From Limnothrix sp. FACHB-406 (GTDB lineage Bacteria; Cyanobacteriota; Cyanobacteriia; CACIAM-69d), in contig NZ_JACJSP010000005.1 in NCBI RefSeq assembly GCF_014698235.1, positions 186,001 through 250,000 on the forward strand: 64,000 bases of DNA, given 5' to 3'. A model generated the notes under the pieces. That model did no database searches. It was not told the origin of the DNA and saw only the letters and a list, made by a program, of their open reading frames with translations. The position numbers and the translations under genes are program-made. Shown here piece by piece: positions 53,145-55,915 of the stretch. How positions within the stretch are numbered: position 1 is the stretch's first letter; each line of letters opens with the position of its first letter.

Positions 53145-53275
53145 AGCAGTGGATTGAAGGGCAAATCTTTTTTGAAGCTTGAATACTGTCTATTGATCTT
53201 CTTAGATTGCCCGATCGTCAACTTGCCAAAATTGGAGGCGCTGGGGGCTAAAAACTCAAAAAAATGGGCGATCGG

Positions 53276-53506
53276 CTATTCCACGATTTCGCCCAAATAT
53301 AGCCGCACGAAATCCCGCGCTGCTTCTGGATTTAGCCTTTTTAAGGCTGTGACGATCGCCACGATCGTTGCGCCTGTGGGATCGCTCAGCCCATGAACCC
53401 AACGATAGGGCACTGATCGCCGCAACCCCAGCTCAATAGCCAGTCGATTTTGGCTGATGTTGTGGATTTTGAGAATTGCTCTCAGTGCTTGTCCGGCACG
53501 TCCCAT
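53276..53506 (-). CDS. HTH (XRE-like) regulator, tandem copy 1
   Basis: The 76-residue protein is a helix-turn-helix domain: LKIHNISQNRLAIELGLRRSVPYRWVHGLSDPTGATIVAIVTALKRLNPEAARDFVRLYLGE. The C-terminal AARDFVRLYLGE is shared with copies 2 and 3. At DNA level its 3' half is nearly identical to copy 3, with offset 568 bases, pointing to recent duplication or gene conversion. It differs in the recognition helix (RRSVPYRW), so it may bind another site. A 50-base gap precedes copy 2. The family is common in cyanobacteria; targets unknown. Confidence 0.85.
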   Translation of the reverse strand: MGRAGQALRAILKIHNISQNRLAIELGLRRSVPYRWVHGLSDPTGATIVAIVTALKRLNPEAARDFVRLYLGEIVE

Positions 53507-53556
53507 GCCCTCGATCGTCGTAAAGGTTGGAGTTTCCGTAAATGCGATCCCGATCG

Positions 53557-53793
53557 CTAACGCTCCTCTAAGAATTCGCCCAAATATAACCGCACAAAGT
53601 CCCGAGCGGCGGCTGGATCAATCTCCTGAAGTGCCTGAGCCAATTCGTAAACCCGTTCAGCGGTTGGGTCGCGCACCTCGTTGCACCAGCGATAAACGTT
53701 CGAGGTGCTAATTTCCAGGGCTGAGGAGACCTTTCCCTGAGTAATTCCGTAAGTCTCGAGGACTTGCTTGAGTGCTTTGCCTGCTTTCCCCAT
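53557..53793 (-). CDS. HTH (XRE-like) regulator, tandem copy 2
   Basis: The 78-residue protein begins MGKAGKALKQVLETYGITQGKVSSALEISTSNVYRWCNEVRDPTAERVYELAQALQEIDPAAARDFVRLYLGE. It is the most diverged of the three paralogs at DNA level yet keeps the same length and the same C-terminal element. The HTH residues ISTSNVYRW differ from its neighbours. It lies 50 bases from copies 1 and 3 on the same strand. Its C-terminal EER extension is unique. Confidence 0.85.
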   Translation of the reverse strand: MGKAGKALKQVLETYGITQGKVSSALEISTSNVYRWCNEVRDPTAERVYELAQALQEIDPAAARDFVRLYLGEFLEER

Positions 53794-53807
53794 TCCCCAA
53801 TCTTGCC

Positions 53808-53828
53808 GTTGTCGTTGAGTTGAACAGT
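53808..53828. repeat. Fragment matching the 3' end of the 54.3-kb gene
   Basis: These 21 bases match 54558-54578 at 20 of 21 positions, with 16 exact in a row (GTTGTCGTTGAGTTGA). The full-length counterpart is the end of the small gene at 54305-54574 including its stop codon. Here there is no gene, only the fragment, placed between HTH copies 2 and 3. Confidence 0.6.
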
Positions 53829-53843
53829 GGGTGGGGCGATCGG

Positions 53844-54074
53844 CTATTCCACAATTTCGCCCAAATATAGCCGCACGAAATCCCGCGCTGCTTCTGGATG
53901 TAGCTTTTTTAAGGCTGTGACGATCGCCACGATCGTGTCACCGCTAGGGTCGCGAACGCCATTGCACCAGCGATATACGGTGGTTCGCTCGATATTCAAT
54001 CTGGCAGCGAGAGCATACTGACTGACCTCGTGCGAGGTCAAAACTTGCTTTAAAACTTGTCCGGCTTTCCCCAT
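53844..54074 (-). CDS. HTH (XRE-like) regulator, tandem copy 3
   Basis: The 76-residue protein begins MGKAGQVLKQVLTSHEVSQYALAARLNIERTTVYRWCNGVRDPSGDTIVAIVTALKKLHPEAARDFVRLYLGE. It is first in the direction of transcription and faces the 230-base spacer that holds three TTGGACT boxes, so it probably starts the unit and may control it. Its 3' portion (53835-53943) is nearly identical in DNA to the same part of copy 1, but the DNA-binding helix (NIERTTVYRW) differs. Confidence 0.87.
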   Translation of the reverse strand: MGKAGQVLKQVLTSHEVSQYALAARLNIERTTVYRWCNGVRDPSGDTIVAIVTALKKLHPEAARDFVRLYLGEIVE

Positions 54075-54122
54075 AGGCTCAATCCTCTCAAAAGCCTATA
54101 GGTTTCGTAAATTGGCTACCAT

Positions 54123-54186
54123 TTGGACTAGTAAATTGATCGGTTGACGTATACAGATTGGACTATTAAACTTAAGACAAGTCCAA
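54123..54186. promoter_or_regulatory. Three TTGGACT boxes in the HTH divergent promoter
   Basis: TTGGACTAGTAAA (54123-54135) and TTGGACTATTAAA (54158-54170) are direct repeats 35 bases apart, and AGTCCAA (54180-54186) is the same box inverted. The last two form a dyad around 15 bases. They lie between the minus-strand HTH gene (start 54074) and the plus-strand small gene (start 54305), as expected for binding sites of a divergent regulator. Confidence 0.55.
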
Positions 54187-54304: not shown

Positions 54305-54574
54305 ATGACGACTGTAACTGACTTTGTGGAAACGCCGATCGCCCCGGAATCCTTGACTGAGGGGCAATCCGCGCTCGATTCCCTGCCCGCGCGATTGGAT
54401 GGGCGCGAAACGGTGAAGGTGATGGTGATTGGGTCGCCGCGTGCGGTGGAAAACACGATTCGGGTGTTGTATCTGCGCGGCTTTGCGGAGTTGTATGAGT
54501 GGTCACCGATGCAGCCGACCCAAAATCCCGGTGAGGTGATGAGCTTGCTGAGGCGGCTGTTGTCGTTGAGTTGA
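54305..54574 (+). CDS. Small conserved cyanobacterial protein, unknown function
   Basis: The 89-residue protein has a flexible acidic start (1-30), then a compact alpha/beta part: RETVKVMVIGSPRAVENTIRVLYLRGFAELYEWSPMQPTQNPGEVMSLLRRLLSLS. The strand-turn VMVIGSPRAV and the closing SP-QPTQNPGE look like a widely distributed cyanobacterial family, but I know no function. AGGAGGA lies ten bases before ATG 54305, a strong ribosome-binding site. It is divergent from the HTH trio, and its 3' end is duplicated as a fragment at 53808. Confidence 0.75.
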   Translation: MTTVTDFVETPIAPESLTEGQSALDSLPARLDGRETVKVMVIGSPRAVENTIRVLYLRGFAELYEWSPMQPTQNPGEVMSLLRRLLSLS

Positions 54575-54658: not shown

Positions 54659-55858
54659 TTATGGTTTGTAAGTCCACTCACCAATAAAGCCTTGCTGGTT
54701 AGCGAGGGATAGTAATGGCTCTAGGGTTCGACGATAGGACATTTGAAGATGCTCAAGAATCAATAGATCTGGAGCTGATATTCTCAAGTCTGAGATGTAT
54801 GAACTGATGTGCTTATCCCATTTTCTCGATGTCATATGCTGATAATGAAAAACAAGAAATTTGTGTTGAAGTCCGATAAAGAAATCCAGATAATTTACAC
54901 TGGGCAAATGATTAGACTTCATTAGATTTGCACGACTATCAACAGGAATTAGATTCCATGGCAGATCATGAGCCACAAAAGACCATGGCAGAAAATGATC
55001 AATCGCAGAGGTCGTATCTTGGAGAGACTGACCAGAGTAGATACAGGATAAATTCTCAGATTGAATTACTGGCTCCCAGAGCTTTGAAATCTGGTCAAGG
55101 GAGCTTCTGCGAATAGGAGGAAATATTTTAGAAACAATATTAGGCGTTGATGGGTTTCGCTGTTGCATATACATCAGCCATTGCCAAGTTGCCCAACCTC
55201 GAACAATGGGGAAATTTTCCCGAAAGTAAATAATCCAATCTTGATGAAGAATAATAGACTGACAAAATGTTGCTTGATCAGATTTAAAACAATACAATGG
55301 CTTGATATCCTGGAATTTTTCTCTAGACAAGTCTACAATTGCTTGGTTGATTTTTGTATCCTTGATTCCGCGCAAAAATTCTTGAAAGAAAGGGTAAATT
55401 AGGCGAAAAGGAACATATCGAAGAATATCTTTGGAAATGTCATCTAAATTTTGTGCTTGAATCGATTTTCTGATTGAGTTTCTCTCGAAATTGGCAAGAT
55501 TGAGAGCCGATTTCAAGAAAACAGGAGCGAGATGATCTAGCTTCTTGGCAATTCGATCTTGGGAGCCAAAAGAGAGCTTGAAGTAACTATGAGGATACCA
55601 AGCACTAATTAACATTTCAATAATCACTTCTCTCAAGTTAATCTCAAGAGGGCATTCAAATGCATGGCGCTCTAGAATATCAAGGAGCGATAAAAAGAAT
55701 AGATATTTGTAAGAGGTGGTAGTACTGTTGAATAGTTGCGAGAGGATGCCAATATTAACCCCGCTCGACTGTGGTAGTTGCTGTGGGATAAAACTAAAAA
55801 TTTCATCGCTCATTATTTTTGAAGTTAAGTGTTGATTGGAGTTTTTTGAAGCCATCAT
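54659..55858 (-). CDS. HNH-endonuclease-like protein, AT-rich
   Basis: The 399-residue protein has a long helical N-terminal region (1-265) without recognised domain and a C-terminal HNH-type part: CIYSGQSL (Cys272), AIDHFLPWSFVAHD (Asp287-His288), WNLIPVDSRANLMKSNHLP (Asn302, Asn311). The DHFLPW/WNL/N pattern is the HNH nuclease core of restriction- or defence-type enzymes, though the usual second Cys pair is missing. The gene is A/T-rich and has no HIP1 octamer, suggesting transfer. ATG 55858 is used; ATG 55813 is possible. No methylase or helicase partner is adjacent. Confidence 0.75.
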   Translation of the reverse strand: MMASKNSNQHLTSKIMSDEIFSFIPQQLPQSSGVNIGILSQLFNSTTTSYKYLFFLSLLDILERHAFECPLEINLREVIIEMLISAWYPHSYFKLSFGSQDRIAKKLDHLAPVFLKSALNLANFERNSIRKSIQAQNLDDISKDILRYVPFRLIYPFFQEFLRGIKDTKINQAIVDLSREKFQDIKPLYCFKSDQATFCQSIILHQDWIIYFRENFPIVRGWATWQWLMYMQQRNPSTPNIVSKIFPPIRRSSLDQISKLWEPVIQSENLSCIYSGQSLQDTTSAIDHFLPWSFVAHDLPWNLIPVDSRANLMKSNHLPSVNYLDFFIGLQHKFLVFHYQHMTSRKWDKHISSYISDLRISAPDLLILEHLQMSYRRTLEPLLSLANQQGFIGEWTYKP

Positions 55859-55873
55859 CGGCTCATGGCTTCC

Positions 55874-55915
55874 ATCACGTATCTTGCATGTTTTATCACG
55901 TATCTTGCATGTTTT
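55874..55915. repeat. Perfect 21-bp tandem direct repeat upstream of the HNH gene
   Basis: A 21-base unit, starting ATCACGTATC and ending TTGCATGTTTT, occurs twice in perfect tandem at 55874-55894 and 55895-55915. The array ends 16 bases before the HNH-gene start codon (read leftward), inside its promoter or leader. The period of 21 equals two turns of B-DNA, so bound proteins would sit on the same face. Confidence 0.95.

Follow-up and report, generated by a model that had tools for sequence, protein, structure and literature searches.

Among the described systems closest to the genes reported here are the controller (C) proteins of restriction-modification (R-M) systems. Their genes are commonly leaderless, carry palindromic C-boxes in their own promoters, and are autoregulated; a fusion of a C protein with its endonuclease is known in one case (PMC4824078, PMC2997769). 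Other systems that invite comparison are the phage-type XRE repressors (P22 c2, ImmR), the antitoxins of type II toxin-antitoxin pairs, whose cognate toxin is encoded in the same operon, and the cyanobacterial proteins that join an HTH domain to an HNH_4 nuclease, such as SGL_RS00075.

The locus lies in a window of 64,000 nucleotides from Limnothrix sp. FACHB-406 (contig NZ_JACJSP010000005.1, positions 186,001 to 250,000), a Limnothrix-like cyanobacterium. It comprises three small HTH genes (g1, g2, and g3), a divergent gene that we call SM, and an HNH_4 nuclease gene (Table 1). On balance, we think it rather probable that g1-g3 are single-domain XRE regulators that work like R-M C proteins, and that they arose from duplicated SM/HTH modules with one conversion from g3 to g1. 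Each HTH copy would then dimerise, bind to an operator at the leaderless promoter of its own gene, and so regulate itself; in the ancestral arrangement it would also control the divergent SM. Duplication of the SM/HTH module would have given a tandem array, from which the internal SM was lost except for a 3' remnant between g2 and g3. The DNA-binding halves of the three genes would have diverged over a long time, and before the split of two Limnothrix species helices 4-5, the stop codon, and a 10 bp flank would have been copied from g3 to g1.

Table 1. Features of the HTH array and its surroundings, in window coordinates.
Feature	Position	Strand	Description
g1	53276..53506	-	XRE HTH gene, 76 aa, distal; tract recipient
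g2	53557..53793	-	XRE HTH gene, 78 aa, middle; promoter probably truncated
g3	53844..54074	-	XRE HTH gene, 76 aa, adjoining SM; tract donor
Shared tract in g1	53266..53368	-	codons 47-76, stop, and 10 bp flank; 3 differences from g3
Matching tract in g3	53834..53936	-	offset 568
Putative remnant of SM 3' end	53805..53843	+	TTGTCGTTGAGTTGA and flank, between g2 and g3
Predicted leaderless promoter of g3	54075..54112	-	TTTACG-N17-GAGGAT, then 7 nt to ATG
Two direct repeats, TTGGACTANTAAA	54123-54135, 54158-54170	+	between SM and g3; candidate operator
SM	54305..54574	+	89-aa protein, unannotated cyanobacterial family; divergent from g3; SD sequence
HNH_4 nuclease gene	54659..55858	-	399 aa, beyond SM

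Three XRE genes and their probable likeness to C proteins

The three genes are all on the minus strand, separated by gaps of exactly 50 bp, and transcription runs from g3 through g2 to g1. The original prediction of three small HTH genes on one strand with 50-base gaps agrees exactly with the ORF coordinates. It also placed a common motif at the very end of all three proteins: AARDFVRLYLGE is indeed present in each, but it is followed by 3-5 more residues (IVE or FLEER). Taking a Pfam HTH_3 match above the curated cut-off of 23 as membership, g2 (34.2 bits) and g3 (38.3 bits) are XRE/Cro-C1 HTH proteins, while g1 taken alone scores 20 bits, below that cut-off. The three are old duplicates within a family that has 7 copies in this Limnothrix genome and at least one member in 139 of the 390 sampled genomes of the class.

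For g3, AlphaFold predicts five helices (pLDDT 94). In the PDB, this model is matched best by C.Esp1396I, C.BclI, and C.AhdI, with TM scores mostly of 0.58-0.71 and a probability of about 1; the Foldseek E-values are 0.02 or worse, for a small domain and a monomer model, and sequence identity to the solved C proteins is about 17-33%. The likeness to the R-M C proteins (C.Esp1396I, C.BclI, C.AhdI, C.PvuII, C.Csp231I) would lie in the predicted XRE fold, a single domain of five helices in about 75-80 aa, in a promoter placed for a leaderless transcript (predicted here), in palindromes beside the promoter, here at some loci, and in the fusion or adjacency of some family members to an endonuclease. 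The difference is that the usual partner here is a divergent SM gene and not a restriction enzyme. Because no methyltransferase is linked to the locus (the main ORFs around it, from 46 to 63 kb, include neither one nor a complete R-M system), the three proteins are described as working like C proteins and are not filed as members. The phage-type XRE repressors P22 c2 and ImmR are among the best PDB sequence-profile matches and share Pfam HTH_3, but g1-g3 have no second domain. A phage origin was considered and dropped, as a search of 50,697 phage records gave no match; the neighbours that were scanned do not include phage genes either.

The tract shared by g1 and g3

A repeat finder aligns g1 and g3 over 142 bp at 87% (53266-53407 against 53834-53975). 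Within this match is a core of about 103 bp, and from about 53370 on identity falls to background; upstream of the tract, the two genes are only 51% identical. Thus the near-identity of their 3' DNA at offset 568, proposed from the letters of the window, stands. So does the claim that they differ in the DNA-binding helix, since the AlphaFold model puts the tract on helices 4-5, and helices 1-3, among them the recognition helix (30-37), in the divergent part outside the tract. At fourfold sites, g1 and g3 differ at 1 of 17 in codons 45-76 and at 5 of 9 in codons 1-44. In each of the two Limnothrix genomes, a GENECONV-like permutation test reaches its lowest attainable value, p = 5e-5. There is no such tract in g2: the repeat finder reports a 57-nt 3' match to g1 at 79%, and the g2 3' half is 58-59% identical to both g1 and g3 despite having the same conserved C-terminal motif. 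As the tract includes the stop codon and 10 bp of 3' flank, constraint at the protein level is insufficient to account for it, and the contrast in fourfold sites together with g2 means that selection on the protein does not explain it either. The C-terminal segment is conserved across the HTH family, which could be invoked to ascribe the similarity to protein constraint or to a recent duplication of the whole gene, with no conversion. This explanation is hardly credible, because silent sites and 3' flank are common to g1 and g3 next to a 5' half at 51%, because the tract is not common to g2, and because it is already contradicted by the discordant halves of an ortholog in a third species of the genus.

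That ortholog, C74a in genome G002, lacks the copied tail. Its 5' half is 80% identical to g1 and 50% to g3. The 3' half of g1 is 64% identical to C74a and 94% to g3. Since the identities of the two halves are discordant, g1 is taken to be the ortholog of C74a in which the 3' end of g3 has displaced the original one; judged from these sequences, the direction of the conversion-like transfer is from g3 to g1. Both flanks of the tract differ and g2 lies in between, so a non-reciprocal, conversion-like transfer fits better than crossing over. The sister Limnothrix genome (G001) is collinear at about 95%, with all three genes and the same copied tail. Differences among the four copies of the tract (g1 and g3 in two species) are all singletons, which points to one event before the species split, and these four copies give no sign of continuing homogenisation of g1 and g3. 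Duplication followed by a conversion-like transfer at the C-terminus, as first proposed, is therefore upheld by the tract, the permutation test, and the discordant ortholog halves, and the excess 3' similarity, whose absence from orthologs would have counted against it, is present in the sister genome too. In the stronger form, with conversion at the C-terminus going on, the proposal keeps one old transfer but loses the recurrence, as the tract differences are singletons.

A second tandem HTH pair is found elsewhere in the genome (C1:93k; L050 3103-3630 in G000:C1:93k, L055 3099-3626 in G001:C1). Its first gene is 97% identical to the ortholog in the 5' half and 79% in the 3' half, and the permutation test gives p of about 0.02, and 0.002 for the breakpoint. 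By sequence, this is suggestive only of another segmental replacement, with a breakpoint at about the same place as in g1/g3.

The divergent SM gene, promoters, and probable origin of the array

The start codons of SM and g3 are 230 bp apart. Between the two Limnothrix genomes (G000 and G001), SM has 8 synonymous changes and 1 nonsynonymous change; since it also has a good SD sequence and a confidently predicted core fold, it is taken as a real gene. No family match was found in Pfam, NCBIfam, PHROGs, or PADLOC, and a PDB fold search with the b-a-b model of SM returned no match at E<=0.001. Among the best 150 HTH places, a divergent SM is upstream of the HTH gene in 73, from at least 37 genomes, and an SM on the same strand beside the HTH in 0. 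The chance expectation of such pairing is about 6e-4 per gene, and the observed pairing is a lower bound. In the 73 divergent pairs the gap is 65-659 bp, mostly 90-140. Of the 390 genomes of the class, 141 contain members of the SM family, frequently ten or more each, so that the HTH and SM families are each found in about a third of the sampled cyanobacterial genomes. Together with SM, the HTH family forms a two-gene module that is widespread in cyanobacteria and had not been annotated before; no published description of the pair was found in the literature searched, the coverage of which is incomplete. What began as a small oddity becomes a testable system, a multi-copy divergent SM/HTH module with an uncharacterised partner family.

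Many SM copies have no adjacent member of the g1-g3 HTH family, and regulation of SM by the HTH is hence not universal. On a Scytonema plasmid, SM is once found beside another XRE gene. As to function, our guess is that SM is a modulator or effector partner of the HTH. The small size of the proteins, their conserved pairing, their occurrence on plasmids, and HigA-like matches among the weaker fold matches would also suit a toxin-antitoxin pair, with SM as toxin and the HTH as antitoxin-repressor. We consider such a pair highly improbable: the arrangement is divergent and not operonic in 73 of 73 pairs among the matches listed, here as elsewhere departing from the same-operon toxin of type II antitoxins, many SM genes are solo, and SM has no match to a known toxin family.

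A pattern TTTA-N17-TGNNANNAT ending 6-7 nt before the ATG is found in 40 of 65 non-redundant HTH genes (shuffle mean 0.035), and an SD sequence in 1 of the 65. This placement near the ATG, together with the scarcity of SD sequences, predicts leaderless HTH transcripts. The -35 and -10 positions of this pattern are matched by g3 and by g1. Having kept only a -10-like piece, g2 is probably transcribed from the promoter of g3. A general operator palindrome upstream of HTH genes was also considered, and it is found at some loci only and does not amount to a rule: convincing palindromes are present at a minority of loci (9 of 65 at p<=0.05, 4 of 26), and the long palindromes beside the -35 at some loci differ between loci. 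A palindrome, GTTATCATATATGATAAC, is just upstream of the HTH-HNH gene of Synechocystis 6803 pSYSM. Rfam has no known RNA at the locus.

The remnant of the SM 3' end between g2 and g3 matches at 92% over 39 bp against G001 (E = 1e-10). It is the footprint expected of a duplicated array minus its internal SM, from which we infer the loss of this gene. Tandem SM/HTH modules (HTH-, SM+, HTH-, SM+) are found in three genomes (G345, G219, G232), and another genus has a triple HTH array with one SM (G319). The array thus probably arose by duplication of the SM/HTH module and subsequent loss of the internal SM.

Segment exchange and the HNH nuclease

Across the family, the 3' half is more identical than the 5' half in only 22 of 50 within-genome HTH paralog pairs, and the medians are equal. 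Two pairs show the reverse (5' 91-92%, 3' 67-77%). The g1/g3 pattern is repeated in G219, where the HTH 5' half is 57% and the 3' half 91% identical, with SM at 98%, and in eight genomes SM copies 87-98% identical are beside HTH 5' halves 54-75% identical. Segment exchange in the HTH family is supported by these comparisons. The idea that recognition diversifies while C-termini are homogenised fits g1/g3, but it is not a rule of the family (22 of 50 pairs, equal medians), and preferential C-terminal homogenisation with adaptive diversification of recognition is not established. The module as a whole may be an unrecognised cyanobacterial regulatory or conflict system evolving by segment swapping, in which paralogous modules exchange or homogenise their SM genes and C-terminal (helix 4-5) halves, while their recognition halves and the operators between the genes become more diverse. 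A single genome would thereby contain several C-protein-like circuits insulated from each other, and HTH-HNH nucleases would be an offshoot; this is possible, and we offer it tentatively. Within-genome mosaics having the same partner or dimer half and a different recognition half provide a natural series on the insulation of paralogous repressors. At L117, L118, and L119, duplicated HTH/SM modules have SM copies 94-98% identical in DNA, with HTH 5' halves and intergenic regions diverged to about 60%.

The g1 gene carries a proline in its recognition helix, and its copy in the sister genome (G001) has a premature in-frame TGA. With its sub-threshold Pfam score, g1 looks to be decaying, which weakens, for this gene, the suggestion of a family learning different operators. 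These signs, and the lack of preferential 3' homogenisation across the family, would be expected if the array were made up of neutral, decaying duplicates of which only g3 (perhaps g2) is functional, the conversion being a recombination accident without regulatory meaning. Such neutrality is unlikely, however, since g2 differs from its sister-genome copy by synonymous changes only, g1 and g3 keep full promoters, and a triple array persists in another genus (G319).

The HNH_4 gene beside the array is the only copy in the Limnothrix genome. The HTH domain of g1-g3 is found at the N-terminus of about a dozen homologs of this protein and of SGL_RS00075 on pSYSM of the model Synechocystis 6803, and on a plasmid of NIES-970 the HTH is adjacent to HNH_4. 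Here, unlike in these fusions, g1-g3 are free-standing, and the HNH protein has its own gene with no HTH attached. It could be argued from the fusions, from the NIES-970 plasmid, and from the position of the genome's only HNH copy that the HTH genes regulate or target the neighbouring nuclease, as a C-protein/endonuclease pair or a split HTH-HNH protein, with SM being incidental. We regard this as quite improbable. Neither G001 nor G002, the other two Limnothrix-genus genomes, has the HNH_4 gene, yet both have HTH arrays, so the HNH is not needed for the array; moreover, most HTH genes are beside SM without an HNH, and many HNH homologs have no HTH at all.

Three architectures of the HNH_4 family occur in cyanobacteria: the fusion with this HTH, an HNH gene next to some other XRE gene, and an HNH gene by itself. 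In several copies the frame is broken. SGL_RS00075 is near a DNA-phosphorothioation-associated gene and toxin-antitoxin pairs. In the sister genome (G001:C90; L053 1-270), a CRISPR-like array with the repeat GTGCCCAAACCTCTGATGCCGTAAGGCGTTGAGCAC, which is not in the window, occupies the position next after SM that the HNH gene has in the window. A perfect 21 bp tandem direct repeat (ATCACGTATCTTGCATGTTTT twice, 55874-55915) lies a short way upstream of the start codon of the HNH gene and is a possible operator.
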